Below, one piece after another: positions 18,661 to 42,255 of a stretch of 42,255 nucleotides of DNA. Location of the stretch: IMG/VR virus record IMGVR_UViG_3300029922_000133, positions 1 to 42,255 of that record; one strand, 5' to 3'. Within the stretch, counting starts at the first letter, position 1. Each line of letters starts with the position of its first letter. The notes under the pieces were generated by a model, which saw only the letters and a program-made list of their open reading frames with translations, ran no database searches and was not told the origin of the DNA. A program made the translations under genes and the position numbers. The DNA comes from a virus.

Positions 18661-18937
18661 CAGCGGTATGTTCTAAGTACCCTCTATAACAGGATGCTTT
18701 TGCATCCTGTGTAAATGCTCGGTACATATTCTCTTTATGCATATGATCTTTAATACATTCACGGATTACTTCCGACTTCTGTTTAGGCGTCAAACCTTCC
18801 ATATCAAGAGTAAGAGCAGGCTTAATGCTTTTAAAATACTTTTCACCACAAGGAACACAGGCGTTATGATCATATGGATGTCTCTCTTTCACGGTTTTAC
18901 GACAAATCGTGCACTGTTTTATTGCTTCAATTTCCAT
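18641..18937 (-). CDS. Zinc-finger protein, 98 aa
   Basis: Cys9-x2-Cys12 and Cys27-x2-Cys30 (CTICRK, CVPCGEKY) form a probable zinc knuckle. The rest is helical and charged. The start overlaps the end of recT by 19 bases, so it is the last gene of the recombination operon. AAGGAAG lies eight bases before the ATG. It may bind nucleic acid or act as an anti-nuclease factor such as those next to RecT in other phages. That role is an inference from its neighbours. Confidence 0.55.
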   Translation of the reverse strand: MEIEAIKQCTICRKTVKERHPYDHNACVPCGEKYFKSIKPALTLDMEGLTPKQKSEVIRECIKDHMHKENMYRAFTQDAKASCYRGYLEHTAVKKGFS

Positions 18938-19686
18938 GCCTCAAACTTCCTTAGCGTATGATCTTTATCAAGAAGAAATTCCAAAAGTGTATGCTCCTCT
19001 GTCCAGCCAAAATGTTCTTGCACAGTGCGCGCATACTTCACAATCAGTTCTTTATCAGCATCTTCAACCATTTCCTGAAGATCCCCTAATAGAATGTTGA
19101 TGGGGATTGCCGGCTGCTGGAGGGTTTGTAATTCCGCATTGGAGTCGTAAGACTCCTGCTTTTTAATAGCTTCCTTAATCTCACCCTCTACATAGCCGAT
19201 CCCGATAACATCGCTGAACAGCTGACGCGCTAAACGGCTCATACAGCGCGCAAATAGCATATCCTTAGGGATCTTATGCCAAGAACCTCCAACCTTCACC
19301 AGACCGGCTTTCTGTGCGTCTGCGATGCTATAGCTGATAGTGGCTGTATCTCCATTATCACGGCGCGTTCCCTTTAGTGTGCAATTAGTATCCGTGGACT
19401 CGACAATCTGCATAGAATGCCCGGCACGCCGGATCATTGCGGACATCATGCGCGCGGAGATCTCGACTTTGCCTTGAATGAGATTGATACCCCCATTTAA
19501 TGCCTGAACGGGAGGTATACCCAGTTCCCGCGCTGCGAGCATTACCATCATCACGCCGGCTTTATCACCGACACCGCGATACATGTTGCTCTCTACAGCT
19601 TGTTTGGCCATCACTTGAAAGACCATCATTTCATGGTCTGTAGGCACTAAATTGCTCGTAGGCGATTGATAGTTCACTATTGTCAT
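18919..19686 (-). CDS. recT: RecT-family single-strand annealing protein
   Basis: The protein has 255 residues, a usual length for RecT/Redbeta-type annealases, which anneal complementary single strands during phage recombination. The core shows the family pattern: a helical start (MVFQVMAKQAVESNMYRG), AGVMMVMLAARELGIPPVQA, the ALNGGINLIQGKVEISARMM stretch near residue 65, and MLFARCMSRLARQLFSDVIG near 145. GAGGAAATAAA precedes the ATG. It sits behind a PD-(D/E)XK nuclease and a 58-aa gene, the normal exonuclease-annealase pairing. The acidic C-terminal tail may contact SSB. Confidence 0.85.
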   Translation of the reverse strand: MTIVNYQSPTSNLVPTDHEMMVFQVMAKQAVESNMYRGVGDKAGVMMVMLAARELGIPPVQALNGGINLIQGKVEISARMMSAMIRRAGHSMQIVESTDTNCTLKGTRRDNGDTATISYSIADAQKAGLVKVGGSWHKIPKDMLFARCMSRLARQLFSDVIGIGYVEGEIKEAIKKQESYDSNAELQTLQQPAIPINILLGDLQEMVEDADKELIVKYARTVQEHFGWTEEHTLLEFLLDKDHTLRKFEAWKLKQ

Positions 19687-19687
19687 T

Positions 19688-19864
19688 TTATTTCCTCAGG
19701 TTCGGATTAAATTCACTGTAGGCTGCGCTCCATACTTCGCGCTCCCGGTCGCTGCGCATGCGTTCAAGCGCTTCTTCTTCGTCAAGGTCACCAAAATCCT
19801 TTCTCGGTACATAGTTTTGTTGCAGCCAGTTTTTGTTTGCTTTTGGAGTATTTTCTCTGTCCAT
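19688..19864 (-). CDS. Small protein between nuclease and RecT, 58 aa
   Basis: This short frame fills the gap between the nuclease and recT, with three bases to the former and one to the latter. The product is hydrophilic and Glu/Arg-rich (DFGDLDEEEALERMRSDRER), probably helical. Its tight spacing argues that it is real and co-translated. It may regulate or bridge the nuclease and annealase. No family was recognised. Confidence 0.6.
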   Translation of the reverse strand: MDRENTPKANKNWLQQNYVPRKDFGDLDEEEALERMRSDREREVWSAAYSEFNPNLRK

Positions 19865-19867
19865 GCT

Positions 19868-20410
19868 TTAGCCTTTTGCGAAAAAGTGTAGGTAGGTCAT
19901 TAAAATAGCTAAAAAAAAATCCTCGTCATAATCGTATGAGTGGACTTTTGGAGGTTTCCCATGCTTATTAAGGTGTATGAATTCGATGCCTTGGATGTCA
20001 TAGCCAGATGCCTTAGCCAAGTAAGCGTAGGCGCATCCCTGCGCAATCCATGTCTTAGAAGGTGCTGATGAAGTTTTGAGGTCACAAATGACAAGACCTT
20101 TATCAGTGTTGAGGATGAAGTCCACTTGTCCGGTAATACATAGTTGATCATCCCAGAAGCGTCTTTCCATCTCGACCACCGCACGACCTTCACCCCACCA
20201 ATGCTTGAAGCTTTCAACGTATCCCCACACATCATCCGTAACTCCATGTTCTCCCATTCCCGAAGCGATTCCTTCGCATATCTTGTGCACCCGCGTTCCG
20301 CGATCGGCTGCGTTTTGAAGCACGGTTGGATCAACACAAGCAAGTCCGCTGAAGGGGTAGAGCACTTCCGTAACGCGAAGGTAATTCGTTCTATCTAAAG
20401 GCTCTGTCAT
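19868..20410 (-). CDS. PD-(D/E)XK nuclease, RecB/Cas4-like, partner of RecT
   Basis: The protein has 180 residues. The N-terminus (LRVTEVLYPFSGLACVDP) and NAADRGTRVHKICEGIA are typical of the phage exonuclease-like branch of the PD-(D/E)XK superfamily. The catalytic core is GQVDFIL (Asp97) and VICDLKTS (Asp-x-Lys, residues 107-114), then a conserved Gln (IAQGCAYAYL). Such enzymes resect DNA ends to give the single strands that RecT anneals. No good Shine-Dalgarno is seen upstream, but the N-terminus matches the family, so the start is accepted. It is the first gene of the minus-strand recombination operon. Confidence 0.8.
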   Translation of the reverse strand: MTEPLDRTNYLRVTEVLYPFSGLACVDPTVLQNAADRGTRVHKICEGIASGMGEHGVTDDVWGYVESFKHWWGEGRAVVEMERRFWDDQLCITGQVDFILNTDKGLVICDLKTSSAPSKTWIAQGCAYAYLAKASGYDIQGIEFIHLNKHGKPPKVHSYDYDEDFFLAILMTYLHFFAKG

Positions 20411-20849: not shown

Positions 20850-21710
20850 ATGTCTTTGCAATTTACTGAAGGAAATAATATAGTACCGATAGAAAAGTTA
20901 AAACCCGGGTTTGTAGACCCGGGTTTTAATGGATGTGTTCATAGTGAACGAGTGATACCTTTCACTATAGCAGATCCACCTAATTTTCATAAAACGGAAT
21001 CTGCTATGTCTTCAGGATTTATTAAATTACAACGCGCAGCCGAAGATCTTTTTGAAAAAGATTTAGATGTTTTTCTTCTTTTAACTCAAATCGCTTTTCG
21101 CGCACTTCGACAAGATTCAAAATTTAATAAGCACGATTTAAAGCCAAATGAAGCTTTAATTGGTGATTTTGAATCGTGTCATTTAACACGGCATCGATAC
21201 AGGGCAGCTCAACATCGCATCCAACACATTTACCAAATTGCAACCTTCAGAAAAACCAACAAGGGAACTATTGCAACTATCATAAACACAGATGTTTACG
21301 ACATAAATTGCGTGTCAGAAAAACCAGCAGAAAAACCAACAAAAAACCAACAAAAAACCACTAAAGAAGAAGTTAAGAATATATCTTCTCCTTCGTCGAA
21401 GATCCCGGCATCGAAATCGAAGAAGTTGCCGGAACCAGCCAAACGGAAAATGGATCCAACGCTTCGCGCTAAAATCCAAGAAACAATCCGCGTCGCTCAA
21501 GAAAACGAATTTCCTTTCCCACCCGGTCGCATCACGCAACTCTGCAAGCAATTCGACGTACCTAGCGTCAGGCAGGCTATCGTGGATTTTGTGGATGATG
21601 CATCGCTTAAGGAAAAGGAACCAGAAATGCTTAAAGGCCTTATTTACAACAACATAAAATCAATTTATGAATACAAAACGGAGATCGAAAATGTTAACAA
21701 TGCCCCATGA
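20850..21710 (+). CDS. Replisome organiser / replication initiator, 286 aa
   Basis: GAGGTG three bases before the ATG supports this start. An internal Met (position 53, MSSGFIKLQR) is where many relatives seem to begin but has no ribosome site. Residues about 52-155 match phage replication-initiator winged-helix domains (GFIKLQRAAEDLFEKD, NEALIGDFESCHLTRHRYRA, KGTIATIINTDVYDIN). A Lys/Pro/Gln linker follows (residues about 157-200), then a C-terminal helical domain resembling helicase-loading domains. It lies just before the DnaB helicase gene. Iteron-like repeats lie inside its linker region, as in lambda O, so it probably binds the origin within its own gene. Confidence 0.7.
   Translation: MSLQFTEGNNIVPIEKLKPGFVDPGFNGCVHSERVIPFTIADPPNFHKTESAMSSGFIKLQRAAEDLFEKDLDVFLLLTQIAFRALRQDSKFNKHDLKPNEALIGDFESCHLTRHRYRAAQHRIQHIYQIATFRKTNKGTIATIINTDVYDINCVSEKPAEKPTKNQQKTTKEEVKNISSPSSKIPASKSKKLPEPAKRKMDPTLRAKIQETIRVAQENEFPFPPGRITQLCKQFDVPSVRQAIVDFVDDASLKEKEPEMLKGLIYNNIKSIYEYKTEIENVNNAP
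20898..20929. repeat. 13-bp perfect inverted repeat inside the initiator gene
   Basis: Arms at 20898-20910 and 20917-20929 are perfectly complementary around a six-base loop. Each arm contains the self-complementary core ACCCGGGT, so the unit is both a direct and an inverted repeat. It encodes KPGFVDPGF. A T-run at the right arm gives it a terminator look, but it lies in the 5' part of a coding frame. It could be an attenuator, an operator or part of the origin. Confidence 0.7.
21317..21361 (+). repeat. Iteron-like tandem repeats, candidate replication origin
   Basis: Four tandem units of 10-12 bases share the core AAAAACCA (AGAAAAACCAGC, AGAAAAACCAAC, AAAAAACCAAC, AAAAAACCAC). A fifth copy, AGAAAAACCAAC, stands at 21249-21260. 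They lie in the linker between the two domains of the initiator gene, the same arrangement as the lambda origin inside gene O. An origin role is inferred. A simple low-complexity coding linker (EKPAEKPTKNQQ) is the alternative. Confidence 0.5.
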
Positions 21711-23076
21711 CATCTACGCCGAAGAGTGCTGTTTAGCCTCGTGCTTTTGGAGCGATGAAGCTGCTTGCATCATCACTTCTGAAACGGATGAATCTGATTA
21801 TTATGATGTTAAGAACAAAATGCTTTTCTGCGCGATCAAGCGTTGCTATGCTTACAACCCCAATTTCTCCACGAGAGAAGTGATAAACTACTGCAACATA
21901 AACAAAATGATGGGAGAGCTTTCGGATCAATACATCATAAACATAAGTACCTTATCTATAGATAGTTATGATTCATACGTAAAGAAATTAAAAGAGAAAT
22001 CTAACGCAAGAAAATCTATAAAGATACTCCAAGATACGTTGGAAAACCTTTGTATACCCAACAATCCATTTGACCTTGTTATTGAAGACCTACAAAACCA
22101 AATTATGGGTTTGTCTACTCAAGATTCAGTTGACCCTAAAAAGTGCGAGCAAGTAGCTAACAATGTGAGGGATGGGAGAAGTTTTGAGCAAAACATGGAG
22201 TGGATTCGCGACCGGAGAAAGCGCGGTCTTCCCCTCTATCAAGGTCTAGAATTTGGCTTTCATAAGCTATGCTCGACGATAGGAGGGTTTCAGAAAGGTA
22301 CGTTAACCTACATAGGAGCGCGTTCGCACATGGGTAAAACCACGTTTATGCTCAACCTTGTGGCGAGTTTAGGACCTAAGATTAGCATAGGCATTATGTC
22401 TCTAGAGATGACAGTGGAGATGCTTTTCAATAAGCTGATAGGCATCATGGCTCACAAGAGCTATTCAGAGTTTTGCCGTGGAGATATTACTGACGAAGAG
22501 TTTTTATTCTTGAAGGACACTGCACAAGTACTTAGAAAGTCAAATATAGTATTTCAATATATGCGTGATAGTAGTATAATCTCTCTTTGCAACAATGCTA
22601 AGAAGATGCTGATTGTTAACAAGATAGAAATATTATTCATCGACTATTTAACACTAATAAAGGCTTGTGGTAAGCACCAAAACAATCATATGGCCATTAA
22701 CGAGATCTCGAAATGTCTTCAAACTCTTGCTAAGAAGATGAATATCCCCATTGTGTGCCTAGCTCAGCTCAACCGATCTAGTGCAAAACTTGGAGCGCGC
22801 CCCACGATTGCCGACTTCCGGGAGAGCGGAAGCATCGAAGAGGATGCGGACACCTGCATCTTGCTGCACCGTCCGGATTACTACAACAAGAGCGAAAGCC
22901 AGGGAATCCTAGAGGTAAATATTGCCAAAAACCGAATTATGGGTGAGCTTAAGACGTTTCAATTCGACAAAGTCGGCCGAAGCGAGTGCCTGAAAGAGCT
23001 TGATGAGATATCTGTCGAGGTAAAAAGAGCAAATGACAAAAATAAATCTAGTCTATTTTCGGATTTAAATGACTGA
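21691..23076 (+). CDS. dnaB-like: DnaB-family replicative DNA helicase, 461 aa
   Basis: The start at 21691 has GGAG seven bases upstream. It overlaps the initiator gene by 20 bases. Residues 4-100 form the DnaB N-terminal helical domain (MPHDIYAEECCLASCFW). The RecA-like motor has Walker A GARSHMGKT (209-217), SLEM (237-240), Walker B ILFIDYL (314-320), AQLNR (358-362) and the arginine-finger region DFRESGSIEEDAD (375-387). All motifs look intact. It unwinds the fork and probably recruits the host primase and polymerase, since neither is encoded here. It is likely loaded by the preceding initiator. Confidence 0.9.
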   Translation: MLTMPHDIYAEECCLASCFWSDEAACIITSETDESDYYDVKNKMLFCAIKRCYAYNPNFSTREVINYCNINKMMGELSDQYIINISTLSIDSYDSYVKKLKEKSNARKSIKILQDTLENLCIPNNPFDLVIEDLQNQIMGLSTQDSVDPKKCEQVANNVRDGRSFEQNMEWIRDRRKRGLPLYQGLEFGFHKLCSTIGGFQKGTLTYIGARSHMGKTTFMLNLVASLGPKISIGIMSLEMTVEMLFNKLIGIMAHKSYSEFCRGDITDEEFLFLKDTAQVLRKSNIVFQYMRDSSIISLCNNAKKMLIVNKIEILFIDYLTLIKACGKHQNNHMAINEISKCLQTLAKKMNIPIVCLAQLNRSSAKLGARPTIADFRESGSIEEDADTCILLHRPDYYNKSESQGILEVNIAKNRIMGELKTFQFDKVGRSECLKELDEISVEVKRANDKNKSSLFSDLND

Positions 23077-24224: not shown

Positions 24225-24702
24225 AGTGTTCGTGCCGGTAAAAACTGTATCTGAGGGAAACATCCGTGAACATTGGATCAAAGCTGCACGCCGGCACCAA
24301 GAGCAGAGATGTGGTGTGGAAAACGCTCTTAAGGGCGCACTTTTTCAACTTCCCTGCACGGTTAAACTCACTCGTCATGGGACACGGACGCTTGATAGCG
24401 ATAACCTACAATTTAGTTTCAAGTGGGTGCGTGACGCGGTGGCTGATTTCCTTATTCCCGGACTTAAGCGCGGGCGCGCTGATGACGACCCGCGCATTGA
24501 GTGGATATACGATCAGAAGAAAGTTAAGCGTGGACAGGAAGGTTTCCTTGTTCAGATTCAATCCTTTTTAGGATGCGATGAATGTTTGGATAATGCCACG
24601 GTCGATTATAGCAATTATAAAGCCCTTGGCTATTTAGCAATTGCGCTATTTCCCGGAACGACTTCCCTTGCTCACGCAGTGCGTGCATACTCGCTAAAAT
24701 AG
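24211..24702 (+). CDS. rusA: RusA-family Holliday junction resolvase, 163 aa
   Basis: The ATG at 24211 overlaps the preceding stop and gives the usual RusA N-terminus. The conserved acidic core is present: LDSDNL (Asp62, Asp64, Asn65), WVRDAVADFL (Asp75) and ADDDPRIEWIY (Asp91-Asp93), then the basic QKKVKRGQ. RusA cuts Holliday junctions and fits with RecT recombination before packaging. Relatives usually end near residue 120. Here about 43 more residues are read from sequence antisense to the serine recombinase gene, and this tail is probably not functional. It ends with TAG. Confidence 0.75.
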   Translation: MTLIEVFVPVKTVSEGNIREHWIKAARRHQEQRCGVENALKGALFQLPCTVKLTRHGTRTLDSDNLQFSFKWVRDAVADFLIPGLKRGRADDDPRIEWIYDQKKVKRGQEGFLVQIQSFLGCDECLDNATVDYSNYKALGYLAIALFPGTTSLAHAVRAYSLK

Positions 24703-25213
24703 CTTGCTGCTGAACATCTTCGACCACGAACCCTTCTATGATCTTGTATCCATATGGCACACGCCCCATCGCTTCACCCTTCGCGCGCTTTTGCTTATAT
24801 GCGCGCCGGATGCGTCCGCTGAGCACTAGCCTTTCATATTCCGCAAGCACTTCTAACATCTTTGTTTGCAGCCAGTCGCTAGCATTAGCCCCGCATGCAA
24901 TCTTTGTGCCGTCTGCATACTCGATAGTACCACCGCGCTCTTGCACCAAGTGCTTGATAAGCGCAATAGTATCACCATTGCGCGATAATCTGTCAGAGCG
25001 CGGGCATAGTAGTACATCCCCTTTTTCCAAGTGAGATATAGCTTCTAGTAGCACTTTGCGCTTTTTAAGGGGGATGCCCCCCTTACCTATGTCATGAAAA
25101 TGAATATAGGACGCTCCCTTAATATACTTAAGGCAGTCTTCAAGCTGGCTTTCCGGCGACGTGCCGTCCTGCTGCTGAACATCGCTGATGCGCGTTACAA
25201 TTACGTATTTCAT
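24524..25213 (-). CDS. Small serine recombinase (resolvase/invertase-like), 229 aa
   Basis: The catalytic domain has VTRIS with Ser10, GTSPESQLEDCLKYI, KGDVLLCPRSDRLSRN (Arg motif at 74-79) and a long helix (EVLAEYERLVLSGRIRRAY). It is followed by a short recombinase domain (GRVPYGYK, residues 150-157) and a C-terminal helix-turn-helix (SFREIAQLLNSQG). It is far shorter than large serine integrases. Its stop codon lies 179 bases inside the convergent RusA frame. It is coupled by ATGA to the ParB-like gene. It could resolve genome multimers, switch DNA, or integrate. No attachment site was found. Confidence 0.8.
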   Translation of the reverse strand: MKYVIVTRISDVQQQDGTSPESQLEDCLKYIKGASYIHFHDIGKGGIPLKKRKVLLEAISHLEKGDVLLCPRSDRLSRNGDTIALIKHLVQERGGTIEYADGTKIACGANASDWLQTKMLEVLAEYERLVLSGRIRRAYKQKRAKGEAMGRVPYGYKIIEGFVVEDVQQQAILASMHALREQGKSFREIAQLLNSQGLYNCYNRPWHYPNIHRILKRIESEQGNLPVHA

Positions 25214-34269: not shown

Positions 34270-34271
34270 AT

Positions 34272-34343
34272 GGCTCTATAGTTTAATGGTTAGAACATCG
34301 GGTTTTCAATCCGAGAACGTAGGTTCGACTCCTGCTAGGGTCA
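34272..34343 (+). tRNA. tRNA-Glu(UUC)
   Basis: The acceptor GGCTCTA pairs with TAGGGTC (two G-U). The anticodon stem TCGGG/TCCGA closes loop TTTTCAA with anticodon TTC. The T-arm is GTAGG/CCTGC with loop TTCGACT. All canonical features are present. It reads GAA. CCA is not encoded. Confidence 0.85.
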
Positions 34344-34395
34344 GACATAGTTTGATAGTGTTACCTAGCCGTAGCCCGGGAAAAAACTATCTTTA

Positions 34396-34466
34396 GCCCT
34401 TTTAGTTTAATGGTAGAGCAACTCTCTTGTAAAGAGAAGATGGCTGTTCGATTCAGTCAAAGGGCA
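34396..34466 (+). tRNA. tRNA-Thr(UGU)
   Basis: The acceptor GCCCTTT pairs perfectly with AAAGGGC. The anticodon loop CTTGTAA gives TGT. The T-arm GGCTG/CAGTC has loop TTCGATT. The top pair of the anticodon stem is an A-A mismatch. It reads ACA. CCA is not encoded. The 52-base spacer before it holds a weak GATAGT/ACTATC pairing. Confidence 0.85.
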
Positions 34467-34492
34467 TCTTGGCATGCTAGCTCAGGAAATTT

Positions 34493-34547
34493 GTCCCTTA
34501 TGGTGCGTTTTATTGCGAAGTTTTTCGCACTGTTAGGGGACTTTTTT
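34493..34547 (+). terminator. Hairpin with T-run between tRNA genes
   Basis: GTCCCTT pairs with AGGGGAC over seven bases, and GTGCG/CGCAC forms an inner stem. Six T follow immediately. This is a good rho-independent terminator shape. Its T-run touches the first base of tRNA-Gln. It may tune tRNA levels or act as a processing signal. Confidence 0.55.
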
Positions 34548-34619
34548 GTCAGATAGCTCAATTGGTAGAGCACATGACTTTGGTTCATGCGGTTAGAGGT
34601 TCGAACCCTTTTCTGACAA
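34547..34619 (+). tRNA. tRNA-Gln(UUG)
   Basis: The acceptor TGTCAGA pairs perfectly with TCTGACA. The D-arm GCTC/GAGC has GG. The anticodon stem CATGA/TCATG closes loop CTTTGGT with anticodon TTG. The T-arm is AGAGG/CCTTT with loop TTCGAAC. It reads CAA. CCA is not encoded. Confidence 0.88.
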
Positions 34620-34622
34620 TAC

Positions 34623-42003: not shown

Positions 42004-42255
42004 ATGAAGCCACAAATTAAAAATATTTCTACTGATCAGTCTGTCCCGACTGAAAACGCTTTCGATTTTGATAGTTTTGAGATCAAAACCTTAGAGGATT
42101 TTGATACATGGAATAGACATGCGCGCATTGCGCTTAGAAAGGCCCGCCAGTTCGATAAACACGCACAACCTGTGTATCCTATCAAGGTTCCCGATGAATC
42201 GTACCACGAGAAGGTAAAGGTCAAATTTCAGCGTTTTGATCAACCAGAGAACGTG
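42004..42255 (+). CDS. Small conserved virion-region protein, N-terminal part (continues at position 128)
   Basis: AGGAG precedes the ATG. The frame runs through the terminal repeat and ends at 346 on the other side, giving 156 residues. The N-terminal 45 residues are polar and acidic (AFDFDSFEIKTLEDFDTW), then basic (RHARIALRKARQFDKHA). Function is not known. It links the decoration gene with the adaptor gene in one operon. Confidence 0.8.
   Translation, partial: MKPQIKNISTDQSVPTENAFDFDSFEIKTLEDFDTWNRHARIALRKARQFDKHAQPVYPIKVPDESYHEKVKVKFQRFDQPENV
42129..42255. repeat. Terminal direct repeat, right copy
   Basis: Identical to bases 1-127. It should be removed once when the circular map is made. 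The coding frame passes through it without interruption. Confidence 0.95.

Follow-up and report, generated by a model that had tools for sequence, protein, structure and literature searches.

The question raised by this locus is whether a series of short repeats inside the predicted replication initiator gene of a phage serves as the phage's origin of replication, or whether the repeats only reflect the peptide encoded there. The sequence analysed, referred to as the window, is the whole stretch of 42,255 bp. It carries an exact direct repeat of 127 bp at both ends (1–127 and 42129–42255), and contigs L006–L009 span the junction, so the window looks like a complete genome, either circular or terminally redundant. 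The first-pass annotation had described repeats within the coding sequence of the initiator, upstream of dnaB, and this is borne out by the open reading frame and by the profile matches of the helicase. The features concerned are listed below.

20850–21710, plus strand: replication initiator ORF, 286 aa as called; relatives suggest a start at 21006
21015–21305, plus strand: predicted winged-helix DNA-binding domain, residues 56–152, with helices and a two-strand wing (AlphaFold2, pLDDT of the block mostly 71–96)
21251–21261, plus strand: outlying copy AAAAACCAACA, in the segment that codes for the wing and 68 bp ahead of the array (exact copy count)
21306–21395, plus strand: predicted disordered linker, residues 153–182, holding the array (AlphaFold2, pLDDT <50)
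21319–21329, plus strand: iteron 1, AAAAACCAGCA (exact copy count, TRF)
21331–21341, plus strand: iteron 2, AAAAACCAACA (exact copy count, TRF)
21342–21352, plus strand: iteron 3, AAAAACCAACA (exact copy count, TRF; the matrix match at 21333 is the best three-copy site of the window)
21353–21363, plus strand: iteron 4, AAAAACCACTA (exact copy count)
21360–21389, plus strand: candidate DNA-unwinding stretch, A-rich, AT 0.77, at the 1.08 percentile of 30-mer stability in the window
21456–21701, plus strand: C-terminal helical region, candidate helicase contact (helices within residues 203–284, predicted with low to medium confidence)
21691–23076, plus strand: DnaB-type replicative helicase (PF03796 1.4e-56, PF00772 1.3e-5, phrog_19 3.2e-71); start possibly at 21667

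The gene of the DnaB-type helicase follows directly 3' of the initiator ORF. Homologues of the initiator start near the residue matching M53, and the first 54 residues mostly have a pLDDT below 50 in the AlphaFold2 model. A perfect 13-bp inverted repeat was found near the called start (20898–20929); as RNA it folds into a 15-bp stem (−24.3 kcal/mol, z −5.5). It is terminator-like on the minus strand and lies in the leader if translation starts at 21006. The replication genes are adjoined by genes of a RecT-like annealing protein and a PD-(D/E)XK exonuclease (18919–20410, minus strand), as is also the case in Vibrio phage 1.177.O. Besides, the window encodes a serine recombinase with a resolvase domain, a possible integrase (24524–25213, minus strand), and three tRNA genes (Glu, Tyr, Gln) at 34271–34620, directly 5' of the terminase gene. 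The GC skew dips slightly and only locally around 21.5 kb; a clear switch at the array is absent, and the skew is not informative.

Exact copies of AAAAACCA occur eight times on both strands of the 42,255-bp window, compared with a mean of 2.30 and a largest value of 6 in shuffled sequences. All five plus-strand copies are located within 21251–21360 (at 21251, 21319, 21331, 21342 and 21353), and the last four constitute a tandem block with steps of 12, 11 and 11. TRF places the top-scoring tandem repeat of the window at 21319–21360, with a period of 11 and 3.7 copies. These exact counts agree with the initial description of five copies, four of them in tandem, and the interval then proposed (21249–21361) fits. 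As a step of 11 is not divisible by three, the copies of AAAAACCA sit in different frames, and the use of all three reading frames indicates that they are not a peptide repeat. Synonymous permutation of the codons of the initiator ORF yielded 0.91 copies on average and no more than 4 in 5000 permutations, versus the 5 actually present. At lag 11 the gene has a self-match score of 19, a value reached in 7 of 2000 synonymous shuffles and, when the gene is read from the later start codon, in 9 of 2000; in a smaller run it was reached in 1 of 60 (p 0.033). The constraint is seen at the level of DNA and not at the level of the peptide.

An identical initiator gene is present in two IMG/VR contigs, within 10.8 kb of identical DNA. 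Being identical to the window, these contigs are uninformative on selection, and they were the only ones to encode the initiator among the 30 records searched for it, including 28 terminase relatives without the identical gene. The nearest divergent relatives were found in Vibrio phage 1.177.O (37% over 45% of the protein), IMG/VR contig L051 (40%) and the Phycisphaerae MAG contig L052 (45%). The Vibrio phage possesses an exact 11-bp repeat, GACAGGCAAGC, in 3.3 copies at the corresponding place in its initiator gene, and its unit differs from that of the window. Contig L051 contains related copies, which are scattered (best lag 8, p 0.34), and in L052 a degenerate 11-bp series is visible but weak (lag-11 score 9). 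The 'replisome organizer' of Solobacterium phage SMO_1P, reached via the Vibrio phage, has repeats of 11/12 bp, and a query with it led to 75 phage records, including Sf6 gene 43, where a rep_origin is annotated at this position.

After two further scans of viral contigs the family set comprised 179 genes, which a cutoff of 80% identity reduced to 85 non-redundant ones; 84 were analysed, since the gene of L191 is shorter than 330 nt and was dropped. The sample is not random: it comes from a few seed proteins and alignments, and from two scans of up to 80 loci. All 84 initiators chain to the window through N-terminal matches at E 1e-5 or better. Loci L048, L043, L047 and L065 were left out of the count, as were the C-terminal-only matches Klebsiella BUCT711, Rac ydaU and Pantoea PdC23, and no convincing 11-bp array was found in these last three. 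With an array defined by a lag-11 self-match score of at least 12, arrays were detected in 59 of the 84 non-redundant initiators (among the matches listed), compared with only one of 161 same-strand neighbouring ORFs from the same loci; 25 family members fall below the threshold. The single control ORF above it, L160:1804–2260, directly follows a short initiator ORF on the 3' side and is possibly a fragment split off from it. The arrays lie behind the DNA-binding domain, starting at gene nt 302–386. Among lags of 7–30 the best self-match was found at 11 in 45 of the 84 genes, at 22 in 11, at 9 in 10, at 12 in 5 and at 23 in 3. The best score was reached by none of 60 synonymous shuffles in 44 of the 84 initiators, 32 of these with lag 11, and in 4 of the 161 controls. 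Grouped by N-terminal identity, 22 of 29 clusters at 60% and 7 of 9 clusters at 50% hold an array. In the cluster of the window itself two of four members are above the threshold (the window and L041), and L051 and L052 are below it.

The first-pass annotation had named relatives that keep the peptide and lose the DNA repeat as the observation that would speak against an origin. The opposite was seen: the 11-bp period is kept, and the peptide and even the unit vary. Judging from the sequences, iterons within the initiator gene, as proposed at first, appear to be the best-supported reading, with relatives holding an 11-bp DNA period at the same position of the gene.

Three held-out homologues were taken from 12 matched plasmid records, and two of them have clear arrays. 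S. aureus SA16-SX scored 46, and E. faecium pA4694_P2 has a lag-11 score of 15 at gene nt 347 (best lag 18). In the Laceyella homologue the best lag is 12, and its lag-11 score of 12 lies away from the usual place and was not counted as a clear array. According to a passage of a review, a mini-replicon of pPR9 with a phage-like N-terminal module replicates (PMC5703833). This plasmid was considered as functional proof and gives no support, its rep gene being without an 11-bp array (lag-11 score 4, best lag 15, p 0.14). Among the loci left out, a Bacteroides ovatus plasmid (L048, 2312–2375) has a 12-bp repeat, ACAGCCAATCAA, in an initiator-like gene, in frame and encoding an ANQT peptide. Record PP511318 (Dulem virus 31; L043/L067), of 36 kb, has CI repressor, exonuclease and replisome-organizer genes and is filed under Microviridae; it looks misclassified.

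The 58 units other than that of the window, aligned in register, give the consensus YRACMARCAAR; position 4 is C in 97% of the units and position 8 in 95%. In this register the window unit reads AAACCAACAAA. The array of the window fits the consensus, which was derived without it, with a matrix score of 7.67 for the unit compared with a training median of 10.2 and with A at position 1, outside Y; 151 of 20,000 random 11-mers of the window score as high. When the matrix from the 58 other arrays was summed over three positions spaced by 11 bp, the best site of the window was at 21333 (15.1), and the best elsewhere on both strands scored 6.1. The array thus belongs to the 11-bp iteron class (phage L type), defined here by units of about 11 bp repeated in tandem where the linker behind a winged helix is encoded. 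The consensus unit contains TAA, TAG or TGA in 25 of the 59 arrays. Where such a stop word falls in frame it is altered in 29 of 29 places, often minimally (TAA to CAA), and out of frame it is retained in 80 of 84 places. An open reading frame tolerates no in-frame stop, so only the out-of-frame copies are informative; their retention rate, 0.95 against a baseline of 0.75 for other trimers, is somewhat inflated, as the consensus is set by the majority.

Sequence comparison suggests that the isolated fifth copy at 21251 may be a genuine outlying site. In 33 of the 59 arrays, versus 12.3 expected, an exact 8-mer of the phage's own unit precedes the first copy, mostly by 65–79 bp. In the zone 55–95 bp upstream, the mean best match to the own unit is 9.14 of 11, versus 8.12 in synonymous shuffles and 8.10 with swapped units; in three zones further upstream no excess of own-unit copies was found in the 59 arrays. 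A register-fixed position profile of the outlying copy is weaker (best z 2.8). With relatives collapsed at 60% identity the excess is present in 11 of 22 clusters (null mean 4.1, maximum 8), and at 50% in 4 of 7, which is not significant (null mean 2.1, maximum 4). For the window alone, synonymous shuffles produced an exact 8-mer in 4291 of 20,000 cases and a match of 11/11 in that zone in 482 of 20,000. Both in the window and in its closest relatives, this site lies in the codons of the conserved T-N-K/R-G-T wing, and the signal is accordingly due in part to conservation of the peptide. Dismissal of the copy as a mere product of the T-N-K wing peptide is countered by the excess in the family 55–95 bp upstream, and the copy is tentatively regarded as likely to be genuine.

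The array corresponds to codons 157–172, inside the stretch that AlphaFold2 predicts to be disordered. No Pfam family matched the window initiator at E 0.1. Phage_rep_O, the Pfam family of the lambda O initiator, was absent from the 12 Pfam families matched by 20 aligned relatives. The RepA_N model PF06970 did not match the window initiator either. In the fold search the winged helix matched the initiator entries 4pt7, 4pql and 5kbj, presumably RepA_N initiators, with Z of 7.0–7.7, tied with unrelated winged helices; searches against solved structures yielded only generic winged helices, none of them prominent. In the viral structure library four matches reached E 0.001 or better, and a usable name was attached only to a helix-turn-helix protein. 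Families of DnaD-like helicase loaders and O-like proteins were compared by profile (PHROGs 2514, 186, 345 and 678). The phrog_2514 profile matched 18 of the 20 aligned relatives at 0.001, and the window protein, at 0.0075, does not reach this level.

The A-rich stretch lies directly 3' of the array. In relatives, the first 60 nt after the arrays contain 73% AT versus about 65% around. In the window the stretch extends over only about 30 bp; the 30 bp that follow it lack this low stability, the whole 60 bp after the array rank at an unremarkable 24th percentile, and equally unstable places exist elsewhere in the initiator gene. In seven loci (L139, L143, L148, L164, L194, L195 and L229), 9-bp A-rich repeats such as AAGAATGWA or AACAATGAT were observed directly 3' of the 11-bp arrays or of their place, and these repeats are a possible second origin element.

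It is very probable that the array is the theta replication origin of the phage, consisting of four iterons and the short A-rich unwinding stretch and bound by the product of its own gene. The N-terminal winged-helix domain would bind the 11-bp units, one protein per turn. Successive units are spaced by roughly a helical turn and so face nearly the same side of the double helix; several copies of the initiator would be lined up on them and would strain and open the A-rich segment at 21360–21389. The C-terminal part of the initiator would then hand over the phage's own DnaB, the product of the next gene, at the opened stretch. The origin would be tolerated inside the gene because this stretch codes only for a flexible linker. 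For the steps beyond the facts of sequence, we infer from λ, SPP1 and pSK41, as they are described in passages of PMC3349717, PMC6316719 and PMC5703833.

The first-pass annotation had regarded coding bias as the main alternative. According to this explanation, a Lys/Gln/Thr/Pro linker written in A-rich codons, or neutral tandem duplication by slippage, produced the repeats, and the DNA has no role. The linker is indeed of low complexity, the region is A-rich, and the linkers of relatives are likewise rich in Gln, Thr and Asn. Against it are the copies in three frames, the score reached in only 7 of 2000 synonymous shuffles, and the stop words retained out of frame; slippage within a gene would be expected to yield multiples of 3, and the family prefers 11 (59 of 84 versus 1 of 161 control ORFs). 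Coding bias or slippage is therefore very improbable. Phased A-tracts are no more credible: in this reading, runs of A5–A6 every 11–12 bp would bend the phage DNA, and it would be this curvature that matters, not recognition of particular bases. Each window copy of AAAAACCAACA carries an A-tract, but many units of the family have none, for example CGACCAACGAG and GGGCCAGCAGA, and the near-constant C at positions 4 and 8 points to base reading. DNA bending could be an additional help.

Plasmid partition sites also include arrays of about 11 bp, and an array bound inside a gene would presumably hinder transcription. It could thus be supposed that the array is a regulatory operator damping transcription of the initiator and dnaB, or a site partitioning the genome, and that replication starts elsewhere. 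This is unlikely, considering the constant place of the arrays behind the DNA-binding domain of the initiator across the family, the origins of λ, P22 and Sf6 annotated at the same place, and the A-rich stretch 3' of the arrays; no partition gene was found among the 12 window ORFs scanned.

The origin reading has a wider form, which is put forward tentatively and with the balance somewhat against it. Phages of Bacteroidota, Bacillota and Gammaproteobacteria may share a large class of initiators with one origin code: a unit every 11 bp, its positions 4 and 8 occupied by C, which the winged helix would recognise and which is placed without regard to frame, stop words being edited only in frame. 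The code would also include an outlying copy 6–7 turns upstream, in codons of the reading wing, where synonymous sites track the own unit. If this is true, the origin and the protein surface reading it share one DNA and change together, as a built-in specificity module. The stop words edited only in frame are a clear example of a constraint on the DNA itself prevailing over coding. Besides, dozens of initiator–iteron pairs with different units are material for working out the recognition rule, and an 11-bp lag behind the DNA-binding domain of an initiator offers a sequence-only route to origins in uncultured phages. In the parts of the open-licence full-text literature available, no mention was found of an 11-bp rule holding across the family, of the pattern of stop words or of the outlying copy; only the 11-bp series of phage L is described there.

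As to known systems, a passage of PMC8022706 describes six 11-bp repeats in gene 18 of phage L as 'likely the origin', and remarks that every initiator apparently recognises iterons of its own, situated in the sequence that encodes it. Gene 18 of phages L and ST64T and Sf6 gene 43 are like the window in having 11-bp repeats in the initiator gene directly behind the N-terminal domain (lag 11 in Sf6 and ST64T) and an adjoining helicase-type gene. They differ in the unit, TGTCCAACGG, and in an array of two blocks, and their initiators are only remotely similar to that of the window, linked through intermediate queries. Pseudoalteromonas phage HS2, with the unit TAACCAACAAG, resembles the window more directly: the arrays are in register, with 30 of 48 array bases identical, whereas the linker peptide is different and the unit contains a stop word, edited at the in-frame copy.

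The origins of λ (gene O) and P22 (gene 18) also have iterons within the initiator gene at about nt 350, the annotated positions being gene nt 348 for λ iteron 1, 352 for the P22 rep_origin and 385 for that of Sf6. Phage λ shares with the window four iterons and an AT-rich stretch to the right, on the helicase side, which in the window is short (about 30 bp), but its iterons are of 18 bp at steps of 20–24 bp. The early label 'lambda-like origin' therefore holds for the layout, and not for the protein, which has no Pfam match, or for the size of the repeat, 11 bp instead of 18 bp. In SPP1, oriL lies in gene 38, encoding the replisome organizer gp38, and comprises direct repeats and an AT-rich unwinding element within the initiator gene, as reconstituted in vitro according to a passage of PMC6316719; unlike the window, SPP1 has a separate loader, gp39, and the likeness is drawn from the published description. 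In RepA_N plasmids of the pSK41 type, as a section of PMC5703833 reports, the N-terminal domain binds four boxes in the middle of its own gene, and the centre codes for a dispensable linker; the window protein leaves PF06970 unmatched, and its fold resemblance to this group is weak and not specific. As iterons in initiator genes are long known from λ, P22, SPP1 and pSK41, and the 11-bp series from phage L, the array of the window adds a member to a known arrangement.
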